Source of the DNA: Sphagnum magellanicum
Taxonomy: Eukaryota > Streptophyta > Sphagnopsida > Sphagnales > Sphagnaceae
Reading direction: 5' to 3'
DNA: 64,000 bases
Assembly: GCA_021904315.1 (NCBI GenBank)
Contig: CM038915.1
Location: 10,912,001-10,976,000 of the forward strand
The notes beneath the pieces are model-generated. The model had not been told where the DNA came from. It was given only the letters and a program-made list of their open reading frames with translations, and did not search any database. The translations under genes and the position numbers were made by a program. This document shows positions 7,791-60,763 of this stretch, piece by piece. Numbering within the stretch: the first letter of the stretch is position 1; every line of letters starts with the position of its first letter.

Positions 7791-8635
7791 ATTGATGAAA
7801 TATGAATTTTTATAAATAATAATTAAATTTTTAGTAAATAGTAAATAAACTTACCTACATAGTAAAAAAAATTGTTATTTTATTTTTACTATGGGAACAT
7901 ATGGTCAACATCAATGTTGACCTGACAAACTGGCATGACAACCAATGCAAAAATGGCATGTCGTGTTGGTTTTAATAACCTTGGGATGGTGTAAGATCCA
8001 AATGGAAAGGCAAATTGGTCACTATTACTCTTCTTTTTCTTTCTATTGTTGTTTGAAAACACCATTGCAAAACCACCACCAACAACAACAACAAAAACTT
8101 GTTAAAATTTCATGAAACTGTTATAATTGTTTCAACTATTATATTCAGGCTAAAATGTCTCCGGAATTATCCAGGGATGACCATATGACCAAAATTGTCC
8201 CTAAAATTGTCCAAGGATAACCATGCAAAAGATTATCCAAAATCTCCTATATATCAACTCCTTAATCTTTCATCATTGAAATTAGAATTATTATTGTTTC
8301 AATTTAAAAGAAAATTAAAATGGTTATGGTTCTAGTTATACACATAAATGAAACTAAGAATCTAGTTATGGTTCAATTTTTAAAAAAAGAAAAATTAGTT
8401 CGAATTTCATTTCAATTTTTAAAATTGGTCTAGTATTGGCATGTTTATAATTAACATGAAGTGGAACATTGTTTTAATCACTGGTTTTAGTCTCTTTTTT
8501 TTTTCAAAAATTTCAATTTTGGTTTCCACACATAAACAAAACCAAGAACTTAGTTTTTGGTCTAGTTTTTTAAAAATGAAAAATGGTTTTGATTCTAGTT
8601 TTAATTTTCAGATTCAATTTTGGTTTGGTTCATCA
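7791..8635. other. Intergenic, no gene seen
   Basis: AT-rich sequence with short CAA/AAC runs near 8070-8095. It ends at the hAT insertion site. Confidence 0.5.
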
Positions 8636-8643
8636 CATATGAT
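8636..8643. repeat. Target-site duplication, left copy
   Basis: CATATGAT, repeated exactly at 11053-11060 on the other side of the hAT element. Eight bases is the standard duplication length for hAT insertions. Confidence 0.9.
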
Positions 8644-8663
8644 CAGGCATGCGTAAAATAGGC
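8644..8663 (+). repeat. hAT terminal inverted repeat, left
   Basis: CAGGCATGCGTAAAATAGGC, paired with 11033-11052. The CA[GA]GCATGC outer part is conserved between the two ends. Confidence 0.85.
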
Positions 8664-8678
8664 GATCAGAGGCCGCGC

Positions 8679-8834
8679 CGCCTAAATTACCTAAATGTCT
8701 GCCTGCCATTGCGCCTAAATTAACTACCTAAATGTTTGCCCGTTGTCGCACTTAAATTAACTACATAAATGTCCGCTCGCCGTCGCACCTAAATTAACTA
8801 CTTGAATATCCACCCGTTGTCACGCTTAAATTGA
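8679..8834. repeat. Subterminal repeats of the hAT element, ~37 bp, about 4.5 copies
   Basis: Units of the type CGCCTAAATTAACTACCTAA followed by ATGTCCGCCCGCCGT start near 8679, 8711, 8748, 8785 and 8822. The right end carries the motif once in inverted form (GCGCCTAAAT near 10995). Such subterminal motifs are the usual binding sites of hAT transposases, so these are plausible transposase binding sites. Confidence 0.75.
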
Positions 8835-8910
8835 CGAGTTGTGTGGTGGTGCAAGAGGGGGCGCGTGTGTGCTTTGGAAAATCGATCTCACATTTGTATC
8901 ATTCTCTGCA

Positions 8911-9217
8911 ATGTCTGGGAAACGTTCGTTGGGGTATGTTAAGGACAATGACGTCCGTTATGGTCTTAAGGTTGCGCATCGTGATCCCAAGTCGTCGAAA
9001 GTGATTGGCCTTCAATGCCGCTTCTGCATTGCATTTGGTCGGGAGGAGAAGGTTGGGTCTAAGCGCAAGGCTGCGACTACTGTTCAAGGATGGAGCCATC
9101 CCTTTCGTTATGATAATATTGAGAACCATCTTTGCAACCAGCATTCTGGTCAATGGCATCTATACCAGGCTCTTGAATCCTCTTCTGAGCGCGCTTCATT
9201 CTTCAATGACGTTCCAA
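8911..9217 (+). pseudogene. hAT transposase, N-terminal part (BED-type zinc finger)
   Basis: The ATG at 8911 opens MSGKRSLGYVKDNDVRYGLK. A zinc-binding pattern follows: C-x2-C in QCRFCIAFGREEK, then NHLCNQH (H-x4-H), the layout of a BED-like DNA-binding finger. Similarity stops at about 9217 (…FFNDVPR). The plus frame beyond this runs through sequence that is really the reversed middle of the gene and stops at 9309. An upstream in-frame extension to 8839 lacks an ATG and was not used. Confidence 0.85.
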
Positions 9218-9716
9218 GAACGACGCAAGAGGTTAGCAATTCGCTGCAGATTGACAGCGCAAACAGCTCGAACAAAGTTGTTGATTTCGTCACGAGAACA
9301 CGCACGTAAACCAGGGTTGCCCAAAACATCATACGTACAGCCGATGAGTTCAGAAGCCATACGAAATGATGTTCCGCAAGACACGTAACGCACAGCCAAG
9401 CGAAACAAAGTGGTTTTTGTCTTGGGAATCGTCACTGAATAAAAATAAATTGTAACATCATCCTCCGATTCAACACGCTTAAACAATGATAATGCTCGCT
9501 CTTTCGCCTTTGCTGCTGCTTGACGATGTCGAAGACGTAAAACATTAATCTCAGCCGCACTACCGAATGCAGGCTCTTCATTTGCGTCATGGTCTGCATC
9601 ACTGTCGTCTTGGTCTTCGGGATTGAACAGCATGTCACCCACAATAGTATCAACAATGTCCTTCTCGATATCATAGACAATTTGTCGTTCAACGCCGAGA
9701 GACGAAGACGCATTTC
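9217..9716 (-). pseudogene. hAT transposase, middle part, inverted in place
   Basis: On the minus strand an open frame runs from about 9716 to 9217. It encodes the acidic linker (VGDMLFNPEDQDDSDADHD) and the block TLFRLAVRYVSCGTSFRMAS…NNFVRAVCAVNLQRIANLLR, which in this family lies between the BED finger and the catalytic core. Read in this orientation it continues the N-terminal part, so about 500 bp has flipped within the gene. The segment expected next, roughly 70-90 residues carrying the first catalytic Asp of the RNase-H fold, is found on neither strand, so the inversion came with a deletion at its right breakpoint. Confidence 0.8.
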
Positions 9717-10922
9717 TTGACGTCTGACGGGGCCCGCAATATGACTGGGCGGGTTGCTGGTGTCGTCACTCGCCTCGATGCCGCAATGCATAGCGATTGT
9801 TCTCTGATTCGGATTTGGTGTGGGGCGCATCAACTAGATCTTGTTATGGAGGACATAATGAATAATGTCATCAAAGAACGATTCTTCTCAGTCATGACTG
9901 GATTTATAACTCATTTAGCACGACAACAGAATCTGATCACGGAAATGCAAACTACGTGCCCTCGCGTCGTCAATCGCTGGCTTTCGACGAAGAAGGTCAT
10001 CAGTTGGTTTAAAATCCATCGGCCACAGTTGCTCGCTCATATCGAGTCAAAGCAGCCAGAATCCGCTCCACCTCGCCTTTGGTGGGTTGCACTTCTTTCT
10101 ATGCATCATTTCACCACTCGAGCAGCTGTCACTTTCTGTTCTATCCAGGGATTAACTACTCTTGTGCTTCAGCAACGAAATGCCCTGGATAACCTCATTG
10201 CATCCTTCATTGATGATGTTGGAGTGACTGGGCCACTCACTGCAGAATTGATTGCAAATATCGACCCATTGCCTCACGTCATTAGTGGTCGTTATGTAGT
10301 TGCTCTGTCCAGTGTTCGAGAATTTCTGGTTGGTCTGGCTTCCTGGGCTGACACCTTACTTAATGAAGCTGATGAAAGCGACCAGACCAACCTTCAGCAT
10401 GACATCGCCCTCGTTTACGTCACCGCCTGCGATCGAATTCATGAAATTTCTGCCTATCGAGATCGAAACAACAATGCAATGGCCGATCCCGGTTCTATTC
10501 CTCCAGTGCTACCACATGAACTCATCAAGCTATCTGCAGCCGACTTCATCCGAAAGATTCGGCAACATGCTTTCCGATTGGATCATTGTTACTCATCAAC
10601 TCAGATCGATCTCATCGCTGATGAGCACAAAGCCCTGATCCATGCTCACAGATGTGAGCCAGTGTTGAAGGACGGCATCGATTCGCTTTCCAACAGTTCA
10701 AGTTTCAAGGATGGTTGGTCTTTACTTGGTGTTCGATTCCCAAATCTGATGGAATATTGTGGTGTCATTACAACGCTTTTTCCTGGAACCAGTACTGTAG
10801 AGTCCGATTTTTCATTCCTACGTTGGGAGAAGGATTTGTTCCGCAAGCGTTTATCGAACTTTGGATTAGAAGGAATCATGCAGGCAAAACAGTTCTTGTT
10901 CATAGAGCAGTTCCAGCATTGA
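9717..10922 (+). pseudogene. hAT transposase, C-terminal part (catalytic core and dimerisation domain)
   Basis: An open frame of about 400 codons. It begins at the TSDGARNMTG motif (the second catalytic Asp region of hAT cores), continues through IWCGAHQLDLVM (the conserved CxxH helix region) and ends with the hAT dimerisation domain (LFPGTSTVESDFSFLRWEKD, then RLSNFGLEGIMQAKQF). There is no internal stop. It has no ATG of its own at the breakpoint, so it is a broken piece of the transposase and not a separate gene. A polyadenylation-type AATAAA lies 27 bases past the stop. Confidence 0.9.
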
Positions 10923-10949
10923 TAAATGCTAACCAATCATTTTATGCTA

Positions 10950-10955
10950 AATAAA
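10950..10955 (+). terminator. Poly(A) signal of the hAT transposase
   Basis: AATAAA within GCTAAATAAAGCC shortly after the transposase stop codon, inside the element. Confidence 0.5.
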
Positions 10956-11032
10956 GCCTTCATTTGGCCCCCACCTAAACTAACCATTCCTGATGCGCCT
11001 AAATCAAGTTAATTTAAGTAATTCAGGCGACT

Positions 11033-11052
11033 GCCTAATATAAGCATGCTTG
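11033..11052 (-). repeat. hAT terminal inverted repeat, right
   Basis: GCCTAATATAAGCATGCTTG on the plus strand, the reverse complement (16/20) of the left terminal repeat. Confidence 0.85.
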
Positions 11053-11060
11053 CATATGAT
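11053..11060. repeat. Target-site duplication, right copy
   Basis: CATATGAT, identical to 8636-8643. Confidence 0.9.
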
Positions 11061-13276
11061 GGTCGTAATCTGCCAAGCTAGGTATTCACCCAACAATGAT
11101 TATAAGCCCCCAAATAAAATCAACTAGAAGTGATTTGAATGGCTCTTAGTGTTATAAAAGATCCAATATCTTTTTGGGCAAAGTTTTGCTTTGTGACAAC
11201 AAAATGTTTTGGATTTTTTTTCAAAATTTCCAAAACTTAATGCAAAATTATTTTTTTGGCCAAACCTTTGGAAACCAAAAAATTAAAATGTTAAAAAAAA
11301 CCTAAAGGCATCCCTCCCCCATGCTTGTCATGTTTATCTCCCAAACATTGACATTTTAAAAATATGGAAATGGATATTGTTGGGCTTGTCACCCATGGAT
11401 GGGGTAGCTAGATAATTGAAATGGATGGGTGAGTTATATATTTAGTAGGTAGCATGATGGAAAATAATGCATAATGTTGATATTATAGTATTGTAAATTT
11501 ATAATAGGGATTTGTATAACATAATTTGGGTTATTAGTGCAAATGTAATATTATACTACGGAATGTGAAGTTTGTGGTCCTTGTTGAATAATCCTTATGT
11601 TGCAATAAGTTATGTTGCAAAGGTAAATGGAAATGTGGGTGCATGCGTGTGTTTTTTTTCCTTTTCAATTTTGTAACGCCGAAGTGGTGATCATTTGTAA
11701 GTATATTTAACTAGATTTGGTAATATCCACAATATGAAAATAAACAATCTTAAACACATTTTTTATATTGTAGGAAATTATGGCGATATTTCGAAAAAAT
11801 TGATGATTTTATTTTTTTTTAAACATGTAATTTGTGACAAAATATTCCTTTTGCCAAAAAAAAATTCTCAAAATGGAAAAAAATCATGACCCAAAAAAAT
11901 CAATGTGGAAATGTCTCTTATTGAAGTTTGATACTAAACAAAGCTTTTGAGTCTTTGAAAAATAAAAAATAAAAATCACAATAAATGTAAACTTTGTTCA
12001 ATATAGCTTATTATTTAACAATTTTTGCTATGTATGCTAAGAAAGATAGTTGACATATTAAAGTTATTTGGAAGTTAGTTCCAATTTCATCACATGTCAT
12101 GAATTTCATGCCTAGTAAGTGCTCACATGTAAAGTAAGACAATCTAAGAGCCAAAACTTGAAACAAAGGGTCAAATTTAAAAAGTTGATGAAGGTATTGA
12201 ACTTTGTGGTTTGGTTTGGGGCATTATTCATAGTGGTTTGGTTTGGTTTGGGGGGAGGTGGGGGTAGAAGTAGACTTCCTTTTTCCATTTTTGAAGGGTT
12301 GGGGAAGCTTGTTGGGCACCCTCAACCCTCCAAAAGCCCAAAAGGATGAGGTCTACCCACAATACAATCCTTCAAAAAAAAACTTGTACCCACCCCCAAC
12401 CTTCCTACCCAAAAAAACAAAAAGGAGAACTTGTGCACACCCCCACCCTTCATGGTGCTCCCCTTAAAAAATAATGACTAAGGGCTAGGATTTGGTGCAA
12501 AAACTAGTTTCATCTTGTATTATTTACACATCCAGGTAATTTTGAATCTCATCCCTTATCTCACCCAAACTAATTGTCTTTGGGCTTAAAGGGACTTTTC
12601 AAGATAACTTTCATTTTACGCAATATTAGGATTCTTTAAAATGTTAAACCTATTTACTTTGTAGATCAATGTGTCAATTCATTTTAAACCATCATTAAAT
12701 TCAAGCATATTTTTTTAATATATTGATTGTAATGAAATGGTGTAATGCATATCATTGCATTTGCATGTAATCTCATATGGGCACGCTCAATTTTTAATGT
12801 TAACAATTGTTGTTCCTTTCATCAATAAAGCTAGGATGATAACTTACAAATTTTGATAACAAAAAATTATTATAATTTAGTAGAATCCACAATAAATCTT
12901 TAACAAACTTTAAGTTGAATGAATTACCAACAACAATACAAACTCATACATGAGTATACAAGGGGCTAAACAAGATGGGAAGGTGGGTAAAACCCAATTT
13001 TGCAACCACAATTCACCTTCTTAAAAATGGATTTTGTAAATTTTTGAAATGCAATTTATGCTTCTTAATGCATCTCCATTGGTTACCCCCACAAACACAC
13101 ATTGCAACATTAATATCTAAAGCCCTTTGTTAGACCACACTGGCATGAAATGTAACATTTGAGCAAAATTGTCACTAATATTTACGTGAAAATTAGCCAT
13201 GTAACCACATGAAGTATAACTATTAGGTTTTTTTTGTGCATTTTGAATCAACTATGACCAAAGCTTATGAAAAAAA
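11061..13276. other. Intergenic, no gene seen
   Basis: AT-rich spacer with G- and C-run patches around 12240-12470. Two overlapping open frames there (12119-12467) are low-complexity Gly/Pro/Lys products of those runs and are not called. Confidence 0.5.
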
Positions 13277-23764: not shown

Positions 23765-24811
23765 TTACTGAAGGGAAATAGTGCTTCCACCACCAGGTGG
23801 CTTCCTTATCCCACCGATGAGATCTCGACCGGCAGGCTTGTCATCAGAGAAGATATCGCTGCCAGATATCTCCTTCAGCTTTGCCTGACTGAGCTGGTGA
23901 TGGAGACTCTTCTCAGATACCATGGCATTCTCTTCACTGAAAATGTCATGTCCAGAAAGCTCCGCCTTCTTCTGGTCATGCAACTTGCGAGCAACTGAAT
24001 CAATTTCGTCTTTTGGACCAAAAGAGATTTGGCAACGACCCCCTGCAGGATTGGAGACTTTGACGGATGTGTGGACATTCCGAGGAGGTGCTTCTTCTGG
24101 TCCCTTCGCTGCCTCTTCCCGCCTCAACTCCAGAGCTCGAGCTGACGGCTTAGGTGATTCTGGAGGCGGGGGACCAAAGATATTGCTGCCAGTTAGCTCC
24201 TTGGCTTTGGCATTTGAGAAAACCCGACGCGCTGTAATGTCATCCGTGGTCTCCACTGTCCCACTCAACTCTTTCTGCTTTGCTACTTCTGGAACTGTAA
24301 CGGCCTTCTTGGGAGATGCACAATTTTCGCCACCAAAAGAAATCTGGCTCACTCCACCAGCTGGCTGGTGGCAACGAACACTAGTTCTGTCCACTGTTGC
24401 TGTAGTACCATTGCCATCAGCATCAGCGCCAGCACCCCCAGGAAAAATACCACTGCCATACATTTCCCTTTTCTTCAAATCGGAACCAGGTCTCCTCTTG
24501 AGCAAGGCTTCAGCTTCTTCAGCTGAGAGGTGTTCACCAAATGTGATGGTGCTGGTTCCTCCTGCAGGCTGGTGCATGCGTATGGTGGGACGACCTACAG
24601 GACTGTCACATGTACTTTGATCAACAACAGCAGACAGAAAGGCATTGCTACTACCACCATTGGTAGCAGTATGACGCACCGGAGGTGGAGGAGATCGAGT
24701 CACGTCAGGTCCTTCTGACCAACTGAAGAGGTCGAATGTTGTCGCTCCTCCTGGTGGCTTTGCTCCTCTCCTGGTTGGAGTCACCCCTGCTGCTGCATTA
24801 TCAATAGACAT
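23765..24811 (-). CDS. DUF4057 family protein (plant, Jupiter/HN1-like motif protein)
   Basis: A 348-residue, intronless reading frame with a clear ATG at 24811 and TAA at 23765. It is mostly disordered and built from two alternating short motifs. A P-[AP]-G-G-x-S-x-I-[ST]-F motif occurs at about residues 19-29, 82-91, 150-159, 255-264 and 339-348. A K-x-[KA]-E-[LI]-[ST]-G-[SH]-[DN]-I-F motif occurs near 114-123, 203-212, 282-291 and 312-321, with a degenerate copy at 178-184. This is the layout of plant DUF4057 proteins. The PPGG…F motif also recalls animal Jupiter/HN1 microtubule-associated proteins, which is my inference. No catalytic domain is visible; names such as 'N-lysine methyltransferase' given to relatives have no basis here. 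Function is unknown. It is flanked by spacer, with no operon-like partner. Confidence 0.9.
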   Translation of the reverse strand: MSIDNAAAGVTPTRRGAKPPGGATTFDLFSWSEGPDVTRSPPPPVRHTATNGGSSNAFLSAVVDQSTCDSPVGRPTIRMHQPAGGTSTITFGEHLSAEEAEALLKRRPGSDLKKREMYGSGIFPGGAGADADGNGTTATVDRTSVRCHQPAGGVSQISFGGENCASPKKAVTVPEVAKQKELSGTVETTDDITARRVFSNAKAKELTGSNIFGPPPPESPKPSARALELRREEAAKGPEEAPPRNVHTSVKVSNPAGGRCQISFGPKDEIDSVARKLHDQKKAELSGHDIFSEENAMVSEKSLHHQLSQAKLKEISGSDIFSDDKPAGRDLIGGIRKPPGGGSTISLQ

Positions 24812-25340
24812 TGACGCCGAGTCTTGGAACCTCCTCTTCCTCCTTTCTTATGTTCACTGATTCTCTCTGTTTGTTTCTCTCTGTGTCTGTCTCTTGCTTT
24901 TTCTTCTTGGAGACACGTTTGTTCGGGCTTCTTCTGAAAGAAGCTAAGAGCTGTGTACCGACCACAGTATTGCCGTTGCTGTTGCTGCTATCGAAGAAAG
25001 CACATCAACGCTGCTCACTGCCTCCTCCTCTTTACCCTAAAGAAAGTGCCTTCCCTTCCCCTTTGGGGTTTCTCTCTAAAGAAAGGCGAGGGGCAAAAAA
25101 AAGATCTGCAGCAGCACAACGTCAGAGCTAAACTAAGAAGAACGGCGTCAAGAAAGTTATTCCTTGGAGCTCACGAAGAAACCCAACTGCGAGCTCCCAA
25201 GGGAAGGACAATGTCAGGAACCGCGTCGCCACGTTCTTGACATGAGAGAGCGCGCGAACGAGAGGGAGAGAGAGCGAACGACAGAGCGAGAGAGAAGGGA
25301 AACACTTGTGCACAGCAGCAGCAGCAGCAGCAGCAAGCCT
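24812..25340 (-). promoter_or_regulatory. 5' leader and promoter region of the DUF4057 gene
   Basis: On the minus strand this region is pyrimidine-rich (CT/TC tracts from 25241-25300) and carries a CTG run (25311-25335). Both are typical of plant core promoters and leaders. No convincing TATA box was found. The open frames on both strands come from these simple tracts. Confidence 0.5.
25311..25335. repeat. (CAG)8 microsatellite
   Basis: Eight near-perfect CAG units on the plus strand (CTG on the gene strand) in the DUF4057 upstream region. Confidence 0.85.
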
Positions 25341-37404: not shown

Positions 37405-39090
37405 CTACCCCCACATGATCATCAATACAAGCATTTTTTTTTCATCAATGAATTTATCCTCAAGTGCAAGCATCTTCCTAATTGTTTCATCAAGGGGTTG
37501 ATAAGGATTATTGAGATCAAACTCCAACTCATAGTTGGCAAATTTTTGAACATCCATGGTGGGAAAAATTCCACTATCTAAAAATAATAAATTAAGAATT
37601 TCCATAAAAATAATAACTTTATCTAGCTCTTTCTTCTACCTCATTGCTTCCTCTTCATTCTAAAAAAGAACAAATAAAATACAAGAATGCTTCCAACAAT
37701 TTTGAATGTCAATGAACTTATTCCAATGTGCCAAGTTTTCTCAAACATGATTGTAGCTCTATAAACATCAATTTCTAAACTTTTGTTGTCCACGAAACAA
37801 TCAATCTAATGTTAGATCAGTCATTTTTTTTATTGTGCTTTGAATGATGCAATGATTCAAACATCCATGCGTTGAAAATGACTTATTATATTTAGAGGCA
37901 AAAATGCAAGTTGTGTAGCTTGTAGTCGTGAACTCACATTAGGCACTTGATGACCAAAAAAATTGACTACCAAAAGTAAATTTTTAATTTTTACACACCA
38001 ATGATCCTCCTAAATCAAGAACAAACTTTTCAAAGACAATTGTGATTATTTTATTAACATACCATAAGATGACAAGGTTTTGTGGGTTGAAAATGTTCCT
38101 ATGATTGAATGCATGAGGCTTCAAGTATTGGTTGACAACCAAAGGAAAAAAACATCATTGTTGCATCAACATTTGCAGTAAATGTCATAATAACATGATT
38201 ACAGTTGTACATAAATTGTAGCAAAGCTTCAATCTTGGACACTAGTAGTAGTTTGGAGAATGTATGAACAATAAGATTAGTTCGGTGGGCAACACAATAC
38301 ACCCTTAGCATGAAGGGGGCATATTTTTCCTTCGATTTTATGATCACATTAATCTTAGCCCCTTGAAAAATTAACATACCATCAACACCAAAGTTGATCA
38401 ATTTGGAAGTTAGATCAATATCAAAAAGGTTTCGATATGATAATAAACTTGCCACAATCACCTTAATTAGGTTCTTTGTAGTAGCACCAAACACCATTTG
38501 TTCCAATGTCAACAAAATAGGTATGCACTCCCAACCTTCAACCACATACATGTGAACATTAATCCACCCCTAGCAATCCACAATAATGACTTCATCAATG
38601 GACACAAAAAAAAACTTTGCTAATTGACCAACTAAACGTGTTTTTGTGAACACAAGCTTTTGCATGCATTTGGCCATTATTTAAACACTTGTGTCACTCT
38701 AGTGATGTCAATGGCTCTTTGAGATCTGTAGAAAATCAAACAATTTCTTCATGCTTTCATAGTTTATAATCGAGCACTCATGTTTCAAGAAATGATAAAT
38801 TGGCACAAACTACATAGATTTGCATTTGCATTCAAAATTTGATTCAACTTGAAGATAATCAAGAACATAATTTTTACCATGTAATGTTGTAAACTAATGT
38901 TTGTTCTTGACACATTGGTTTGTTGAATTAAGAATATACCAACCTTTTGTGACCCTTGGCCTAGTTATAAGAGCCTTTTAACAACATGTTTGTTTTTTAA
39001 GGTTGTCAAACTTGGGGATAAACAATTTTTTACGTTTCTTTACATCAATACACATTTTACATCTAACCATCAACAACTTACCATTCAAAC
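37405..39090 (-). pseudogene. hAT-like (DUF4371-type) transposase pseudogene
   Basis: On the minus strand, from high to low coordinate: a zinc-finger-like remnant with CIDVKKRKKLFIPKFDNL near 39060-39000; then SIDEVIIVDC near 38620-38590; then VYVVEGW…PILLTLEQMVFGAT…NLIKVIVASLLSY…SKLINFGVDG…FQGAKINVI and YAPFMLRVYCVAHRTNLIVH (about 38550-38250), which carries the conserved C-x2-H-x-TNL signature of this transposase group. A much eroded C-terminal part reaches about 37405. Stops and frameshifts are frequent. It is unrelated in sequence to the younger hAT element at 8644-11052. Confidence 0.7.
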
Positions 39091-57980: not shown

Positions 57981-59128
57981 TCACTCAGCCTTTTTGGCAG
58001 CAGGAGAGGCAGGTGTAGGAAGCGGTTTGGGGTGTTTTTTGTCCTTAGGAGGATGTTCTCTCAAATGCCGATCTCTGTCATGAAAATATTGCTCAAAGGC
58101 CCGTGGCAAAAAAAAGGGAATGAGGAAGCCAAACAGATTGAGAGAATAGTAGATAGCATTCAAGGCTGCCAGTCCTCTCCCAAACCAAATCCACAATTGG
58201 TCCTGCATTTCACATAACCAGAGACAAAAGTGTAACAAATGCAAGATACCTTCAACAACAACAACAACAAAAAACAGAATCTTCAAAGTAGAAAGAAGGA
58301 GTTTTTGGCCAGCACTAATACTACATGGCCATTTTATGACAGTAAGAACTGTGGTATCAAAGAGCAAACAGTCTCACAAAAGAAAACCCTAAAAAAAAGT
58401 TCCCTATCGATAAGCTTGAGATCACAAGCAATCAAGAGATACATGCATTCAAAATCAGAAAGGTGATGTGATGGTTTGAATTTAGAGATTGCCGATGCTT
58501 GTGGAAGTGAGAGAGTATAGTTGGATACCTGGTATGGAATGTCCGGGGACAATTTATTGCTGAAGAAAGTTTCAGCAACCCAGTTGACGAGGGTAAAGAG
58601 ACGCCTCATGTTGTAGAGAATGGGCAGCAATGCTCTGACTGGCAGTGAAAAGATATTCAAGCCTCTGATGATGTTCTCACTCAGTACCTGGAAGGAAAGA
58701 AGAAACAGATGCGGCGTGGCTGCTCTCACTGCTTCTTGGTCGCCTCTCGCAAAACCCCCCAAGACATAAGCCAGAGGTAAAAACAAGCCTATCACAGTCC
58801 CTATTATGACGTAGAATTGGAAAGCCCTATTTCCTTTGAACAATTGGAGAGCATCAGGGTTGCCGTAGTTTGGGAACACGAAGTAGGAGAGAAGGAAGCA
58901 ATAGATTGTGATGAAGATAGGGAAAACCAAGTCTAGAACTGGCACCAATCCACTTGCTGAAAACACCACAATGAAAGCCACCAGCTGAAGCTCTATGACT
59001 CTCAATGAACCCATCACTCCTCCAAGCCCTGCCACATCTCCTGCCCTTTCCTCGAATTTCTTCCCATGTTGTTCAGACTTGTCTAGCTTTAGTACCCTAG
59101 GCCCCGTCGCCAACGTCGCCCCTGACAT
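57981..59128 (-). CDS. Plant multi-pass membrane protein (probably DUF7733 family), two exons, dilysine tail
   Basis: Exon 1 is 59128-58529 (ATG to phase-0 GT donor, 200 codons) and exon 2 is 58202-57981 (AG acceptor to TGA), giving 273 residues. The N-terminus is polar (MSGATLATGPRVLKLDKSE). Hydrophobic segments lie at about 43-85, 102-125, 138-170 and 210-232. A charged tail (YFHDRDRHLREHPPKDKKH) ends in …AKKAE. The last four residues, KKAE, fit the KKXX signal that returns membrane proteins to the ER. From memory this matches a plant-only family labelled DUF7733; no function is established. It is the first of two minus-strand membrane-protein genes here, 1.6 kb from the next, and they are not likely to be co-transcribed. 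Confidence 0.85.
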
Positions 59129-60763
59129 TATTATTATGACACAACCTTGAGCTGTTCGATGGAAATCTCGTTGTGGAAAAAACCTGAAAAAAACAAAACA
59201 AAACAAAACAAAAGAACCCTGGAGATTATCAGGTGAAGATGAAGCAAAAGAGCTACTTCAGAACTGAAGACACGATCAGCAAAAACTCGGACAAGAAAAA
59301 AAATCTTCTGAAGCTCAGATTGCAGAACCCTAAGACAACGAGAATCTCGCAACCGATGGTACCTGGGGAGGAGAGGGTAGTCTACAAACGCACCAAACGA
59401 ACAAGCGAGCAAGCATGGTGAGGCAAGCAATGCAAGAAGCCAAACTGACAGCTGGCAGATGCGCTGGCATCCACGTTGCAGTAGTGCAAGCTGCCTAGCT
59501 CTGGATTCTGCCACGTAACCGAAGTCTTACTGCTAGCATGGCCAAGCTATTGAAAATGATGACTTGCACTTGAATGGTAAGTAAGTTAGGGTTTAGGGTT
59601 TAACCTAACCCTGTTATTTTTTTGTCTTTTTTGTCTCTTCCTTTTTTTCCCCTTTCTGGAAGCCAAGCTTCCATATCCCTTGGCAACCCTACTGTTTTCT
59701 TTTCTCTCAAACTTTTTAAAAGAAGGGAAAAAAAATTACATTTGATTACAATGATGCATGGCTCAACAAGATTTGCAGGATGTCTCTTGACAATGATCAA
59801 GGCTTCAAGAGAACTAGCTTAGAAATGTGTAAAATCCAGTATCATGATTAAAGCATGGAATGAAATATAACTAAGATACACCCTGCATGGCTTGTGACAG
59901 AGAAATAAAATAGTTTACTTCTGTCCTTGCCCACCGGTAATTGATAAACAGAAGTTATAATTCTCAACAAATAGAAATCAACTGATCTTTAACAATGCCC
60001 ACATTAGAAAGTATAAGCAAAAGTTTCATGTTCAATAGGGGAAAGACACATCCCACTTAAACAACCATGCATCTTGTAACACAATATCATTGTTTCCAAG
60101 CGCTTAATCTGAGTAACATTCCAATCTCCAAATTTGGACATTGGAAGAAGGTATTCAGACTCACTCAGCATCATGGGTTTAACTGAATCAAAAGACAATG
60201 AGTCAGTGCTTTTCCGTTCAATTCATATTTCCAGAGGTGACTTGATGTTACTGCTTCCTTTCTGAAGTCAAGCAGTTTCTAACAACAGTGTTTGAAAAAC
60301 AAGTGGTACTACATTGAAGAGTTGAACAGGACATGGTGGTTTGCCCAGAGCTTCCCTTGTGAACCCTGAAACATAGCTTGTTTCTTTAGGTCAACTGGAG
60401 CAGTGTTGCTTACAGCAACTCAATAACAAAAGGGAAACCCTGAAACATAGCTTGTTCCTTGAGGTGCAATCAGAACAGCATTGCTTACAGCAATTCAACA
60501 ACCACAAAGCCAAAAGCTTCTCACTAGCTCCCAAATTTTGGTTGATTGGAGTGCACTGGATTTGGAACCAAGTTGATTGCTATAGGTCATGTACCTGGTG
60601 GTGGAAAAACTCTACAGAAGGTTCCAGGATTGGCCATCTCCTTAGTGAAGCTTCAAAAGGCAACTGCAAGTATATACACTACATCTCCAAAAGGCACACA
60701 AAGGCCCAGCAAGTGAGGCCTCCATATGCAGAACCTCTACAAGTTGCAACACACAGCAGTTTT
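59129..60763 (-). other. Upstream region of the dilysine membrane-protein gene
   Basis: Contains the 5' leader and promoter of the 57981-59128 gene and the 3' flank of the heptahelical gene. At 59586-59610 there is a TTAGGGTTTAGGGTTTAACC word, similar to the telo-box of plant promoters. The open frame at 59134-59514 starts inside the likely leader and matches no family. Confidence 0.45.
60364..60511. repeat. 74-bp tandem duplication
   Basis: CCCTGAAACATAGCTTGTT at 60364 recurs at 60438, and the following GCAGTGTTGCTTACAGCAA-type block also recurs. There are two copies, about 85% alike by eye, in the 3' flank of the heptahelical gene. Confidence 0.75.

Follow-up and report, generated by a model that had tools for sequence, protein, structure and literature searches.

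The window, a 64,000-nucleotide stretch of Sphagnum magellanicum contig CM038915.1, contains a transposon in which the middle of the transposase gene is inverted between intact element ends, with sequence missing at both breaks. Very probably, it belongs to a small plant family of hAT-like elements and became defective when break repair within this one copy left an internal inversion with end losses. The inversion occurs once among the copies found in the host genome, and 13 close siblings allow the breaks, losses and joints of a hAT-like internal inversion to be read almost to the base.

Structure of the element

The element occupies 8644-11052 (2409 bp) and is flanked on each side by a perfect 8-bp target-site duplication (TSD), CATATGAT. 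Its TIRs, CAGGCATGC.. and CAAGCATGC.., match at 18/24 positions. We scanned for pairs of ends with perfect 8-bp flanks, taking left ends from 8300-8899 and right ends from 10925-11499, and obtained 39 pairs. The chosen pair has the best TIR of the 39, the runner-up matching at 13/24, and an 8-bp TSD combined with an 18/24 TIR arose in 0/200 first-order Markov copies of the flanks. A pattern built from both TIRs matches the window solely at the 8644 and 11052 ends of the element, and inside the element the CCTAAATTAA motif (at most one mismatch) is confined to the neighbourhood of the two ends. These results confirm the proposal of the initial annotation that the ends and target duplication are intact. 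The features of the element are as follows.

8636-8643, no strand: left target-site duplication CATATGAT (8/8 match to 11053-11060)
8644-8667, plus strand: left TIR (18/24 positions match the right TIR)
8679-8835, plus strand: 5' subterminal repeats with the CCTAAATTAA motif at 37-bp spacing (repeat families D1-D3)
8911-9215, plus strand: front of the transposase gene (shared with 13 close siblings as far as about 9215)
9216-9710, minus strand: middle of the transposase gene, inverted (open minus frame; opposite strand in 13/13 close siblings)
9711-9715, no strand: filler CATTT, 5 bp, at the right joint (part of 7-11 bp that match forward-strand sequence absent from the left break)
9716-10922, plus strand: back of the transposase gene (SDGARNMTG, CGAHQLDL and a C-terminal dimerisation-like motif by eye)
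10950-10955, plus strand: AATAAA polyadenylation-like signal (sequence motif)
10972-11019, no strand: 3' subterminal copies of the CCTAAATTAA motif (motif scan)
11029-11052, minus strand: right TIR (18/24 match to the left TIR)
11053-11060, no strand: right target-site duplication CATATGAT (8/8 match to the left TSD)

The transposase gene of the window copy thus reads front (plus), middle (minus), back (plus). Its front contains a C..C ... H....H finger that is BED-like by eye, and the front frame continues into the inverted tract as far as a stop at 9307-9309, giving 132 aa. Between front and back, a single minus frame is the only one open throughout. With codon usage trained on the front and back, this frame is the best of the six in the middle; 9/5000 Markov controls for the middle reached its score and 32/5000 had any open frame. 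As a control of the codon scoring itself, the true frame was picked in 24/24 windows of the back part. Comparison of front, middle and back by blastp (E ≤1) returned self matches only, indicating that the middle duplicates neither of the other two parts. The strand order described by the initial annotation is therefore upheld by the open minus frame and by the 13/13 close siblings that carry the middle on the other strand. Its account of an inverted segment at 9217-9716 was right as to the inversion but not as to the limits, which we correct to about 9216-9710, with filler at 9711-9715 and the back part from about 9716.

Assignment to a hAT-like family

hAT elements end in short TIRs that start with CA and are accompanied by subterminal repeats. 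The window copy has such TIRs and subterminal repeats, as well as the 8-bp TSD of the hAT superfamily. By eye, the back part contains SDGARNMTG, CGAHQLDL and, C-terminally, FPGTSTVESDFSFLRWEKDLFRKRLS, which resemble the DGaxN and CxxH motifs of the hAT RNase H part and the hAT dimerisation motif, respectively. The TSD, the two TIRs with their subterminal repeats, the finger and these motifs by eye together point to hAT.

Profile searches gave a different picture. The Pfam hAT and BED models matched none of three parts of the window copy at E ≤1, none of four parts at E ≤10, and neither of two sibling frames (L015 and L020) at E ≤10; the weak matches obtained were to other models and fell below cutoff, for example DUF4218 (E 0.083, 13.2 bits versus a cutoff of 27). 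A search of PDB sequences with the back part only (E ≤10), meant to include solved hAT transposases such as Hermes, returned 0 matches. Either the family is too divergent for the Pfam models or it is not hAT, and since neither Pfam nor PDB lends support we label it "hAT-like" rather than hAT. As the family has no Pfam hAT match, similar elements may stay unlabelled in plant genomes.

Composition, neighbourhood and relatives outside the host

The G+C content of the element is 0.46, and that of its flanks is 0.286 and 0.314. Values of about 0.5 also occur in other 1-kb stretches of the window, one of them over a host gene; the contrast therefore says nothing about origin, and a horizontal origin argued from G+C loses its basis. 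Protein scans of viral contigs and of genome contigs outside the host found no relative, nor did a tblastn search of plasmids in which the back part was the query. One sequence pattern found nothing among viral contigs and genome contigs, while two others hit six viral loci that are chance matches only (best E 0.26). The transposase may have some likeness to oomycete proteins.

Elsewhere in the window, a 156-aa open frame with CVAHRTNL on the minus strand at 38099-38569 looks by eye like another transposase remnant and has no Pfam match (E ≤0.01). Two host genes, both on the minus strand, match DUF4057 (23765-24847, E 1.7e-84) and DUF7733 (58334-59257, E 5.9e-59), which are plant families and mark the host genome as that of a plant.

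Sibling copies in the host genome

We searched the host genome (439 Mb in 31 contigs) with 8911-10922 as the query, the numbers of matches being lower bounds. Besides the window copy, there are at least 13 close copies, whose back parts show 89-97% identity, and at least 11 looser places (about 66-80%). For comparison we retrieved all 13 close copies and 7 looser ones. Middle and back read from one strand in 13/13 close and 7/7 looser copies, the reverse of the arrangement in the window copy, and we therefore take the sibling order to be the sense order. Siblings without the inversion, with front, middle and back in one sense order in 13/13, thus supply the ancestral arrangement that the initial annotation had hoped to recover from them, and its proviso that the family consensus might encode the middle on the opposite strand does not hold (0/13 close, 0/7 looser).

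Among the copies found, the inverted arrangement itself is confined to the window copy. With a 181-base query over the left joint, 26/26 other matches break at the joint and the window copy alone matches across it; the full-length query spans the right joint too, and the window copy is the sole match through. An amplified family sharing the inversion, as once envisaged, is contradicted by these matches and by its occurrence in 0/13 close siblings. All parts of the gene lie within intact ends and the siblings are uninverted, which places the rearrangement inside the element, as had been claimed. Its single occurrence agrees with an inversion either before or after insertion at 8644-11052. Queries with the element's ends found at least 20 places for the 5' end (the window copy, the 13 close siblings and 6 weaker places) and at least 18 for the 3' end (the 14 close loci and 4 weaker ones); among the matches listed for these two queries in the host genome there was no additional close copy that could be a short non-autonomous derivative. 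One close sibling, L021, has separately lost about 73 bp within its back part.

TSDs match at 8/8 positions in 11 of the 13 close siblings, at 7/8 in L023 and at 4/8 in L015. The left flank of L015, GGCATGCG, is similar to the end of the element itself and agrees with the right flank at those 4/8 positions only, and the left side of that copy may therefore be rearranged. In the 13 copies whose TSDs match at 7/8 or 8/8 positions (the window copy plus 12 of the siblings L015-L027), the TSD core by eye has pyrimidine-A-T at positions 3-5 in 13/13, followed by a purine in 11/13.

Breakpoints of the inversion

We set the limits of the blocks at the joints by hand from the sibling comparison. In all 13 siblings a spacer of 35-37 bp separates front from middle and one of 212 bp separates middle from back; the window copy has neither. 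Its inverted tract is about 495 bp long (9216-9710); about 36 bp were lost at the left break, and the right break lacks 212 bp. At the left joint, CC (9214-9215) fits both sides in 9/13 siblings, extended to CCA in two of these nine (L021 and L022). At the right joint, the bases 9711-9715 cannot be assigned to the inverted tract or to the back part. Together with its neighbours, this filler matches forward-strand sequence lost at the left break over 7 bp in 3/13 siblings, 8 bp in 7/13, 9 bp in 2/13 and 11 bp in 1/13. Templating of the filler is only suggestive, because the match is short and an 8-mer across the filler also occurred in 65/5000 stretches of 95 bp drawn at random from the 13 close-copy loci, true places included.

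The rearrangement is thus not a segment "flipped in place", as first described, but an inversion with two losses (about 36 bp and 212 bp) and a 5-bp filler. The 212-bp tract encodes LALDSATHQ in L015 and IALDSATHQ in the looser copy L029, with LALN at the corresponding position in L016, L018 and L020. From its position and the usual layout of hAT transposases, we take the LALD/IALD site as the place expected for the first catalytic Asp. The initial annotation was therefore correct that the continuation carrying this residue is absent, but had not recognised a separate 212-bp loss.

Origin of the inversion

Losses at both breaks, 2-3-bp microhomology and an apparently templated filler suggest error-prone end joining or template switching, and the joints are of a repair type rather than of repeat-mediated recombination. 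We propose that the transposase gene of one copy was broken twice, at the boundary of front and middle and just upstream of the second-Asp region, and that repair with end loss would have removed about 36 bp and 212 bp. The piece of about 495 bp would then have been put back in reverse, either through microhomology end joining or through template switching in repair synthesis. The nearest sibling is L017 for the front (3.2%) and the middle (3.4%) and L016 for the back (3.2%). Since each part is thus nearest to one young subgroup, L015-L017, the inverted piece came either from the copy itself or from a very near sibling.

The piece could instead have been copied from a different sibling serving as an ectopic repair template, which we consider improbable. 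That the nearest sibling varies by part would suit such a template, and support for the branches within the young subgroup is low (47 and 69); against this, the middle repeats nothing in front or back (blastp E ≤1), its source also falls in the young subgroup, and an own piece takes fewer steps. There is far less to recommend an assembly artefact, in which the assembler would have put the middle in backwards. A family of 13 close repeats might mislead an assembler, but joints defined at base level, with end losses, microhomology and filler, are unlike a join at a long repeat, and the middle has private substitutions at 6/493 sites relative to the four nearest copies.

A third route starts from the 6-bp inverted repeats CAAGAA and TTCTTG, which lie at 9215-9220 and 9714-9719; recombination between them would flip the tract, and re-inverting it does yield a single frame of 269 codons. 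Such recombination is not expected to lose sequence, whereas sequence was lost at both breaks, and the right TTCTTG is composed of filler plus back part. As the sibling comparison gives losses and filler, we take this route as refuted and leave it next to no probability. Inversion with end losses through break repair within one copy accordingly remains our preferred account.

Age, decay and possible function

The terminal branch of the window copy is the shortest of 14, at 0.0135 substitutions per site, those of the siblings ranging from 0.0215 to 0.0937. Its 667 codons contain 0 stops, whereas the aligned coding parts of every one of the 13 close siblings are interrupted by 2-11 in-frame stops; one frameshifting indel is present in five siblings, two in three and none in five. 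By branch length and absence of stops, the window copy is the youngest-looking of the 14. About 3.9% of single changes create a stop and about 1 stop is expected on its short branch, which makes zero stops unremarkable. Relative to the four nearest siblings, the private changes in its coding parts number 11 nonsynonymous and 6 synonymous, too few to distinguish constraint from none.

A functional copy would have an uninterrupted transposase gene; that of the window copy is broken by the inversion and two losses, and we infer that it would no longer encode a whole transposase. Because its ends are intact, the copy could be movable in trans, perhaps by another copy's enzyme. Among 20 copies (13 close, 7 looser), we found no intact transposase source, the longest ATG-initiated frame being 124-381 aa in the close copies and 142-336 aa in the looser ones.

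It had been suggested that the copy acts as a binding-site decoy or antisense-RNA source for active relatives, and a 132-aa finger-only repressor can be added to these functions (compare maize Mu killer and Drosophila KP). We regard any such functional derivative as very unlikely. In its favour, the frame of the front is open and includes a finger seen by eye, the ends and subterminal repeats are intact, and the 495-bp tract would yield an antisense transcript, for which a hairpin need not form if the proposal for Mu killer in PMC3440606 applies. Against it, the copy occurs once, the lack of any inverted repeat longer than 17 nt in 8500-11200 means that it has no long hairpin, and no intact relative was found that it could regulate, given the stops in 13/13 close copies. 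With no intact source among the 20 copies, a decoy or antisense role has no target here, and that suggestion is unsupported. A putative natural silencer, combining the 132-aa finger-only protein with the 495-bp antisense tract against sibling transcripts whose sources later decayed, is more doubtful still; if true, inversion alone, with nothing duplicated, would have created a silencer resembling the short antisense transcripts that have been proposed for Mu killer. The copy has no evident effect on the host.

Comparison with known systems

The window copy is real, single, recent, defective and ordinary. Defective hAT copies with intact ends that are movable in trans are familiar from the Ac/Ds derivatives, which are mostly deletions; the window copy shares the intact ends and has the inversion as an additional step. 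Inverted repeats beside Ds are described in PMC1978519. We found no hAT-specific precedent for an internal inversion in the literature searched, outside which most subscription papers lie.

The initial annotation called such a copy unusual, but inverted internal regions are already in print for other plant DNA transposons, the PIF/Harbinger-like elements of Medicago truncatula. PMC2213677 ties those inversions to 60-bp tandem repeats and offers abortive gap repair as a general model for internal change. The Medicago elements belong to another superfamily with a 3-bp TSD, and the joints of the window copy are not explained by repeats. Among gap-filled animal DNA transposons, hAT elements are the commonest (208/370), and the microhomology at internal break repair has a median of 2 bp and is ascribed to template switching (PMC8277862). 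Internal break repair with short microhomology would thus be common to these elements and the window copy, but the animal transposons capture foreign sequence, whereas the piece in the window copy is probably its own, reversed. Maize Mu killer likewise is a rearranged transposase gene with a potential antisense transcript; in PMC3440606, its silencing is proposed to proceed via short antisense transcripts unable to form large hairpins. Mu killer silences MuDR and is built as a partial inverted duplication, whereas the window copy carries an inversion without duplication and has no active target among the copies found.
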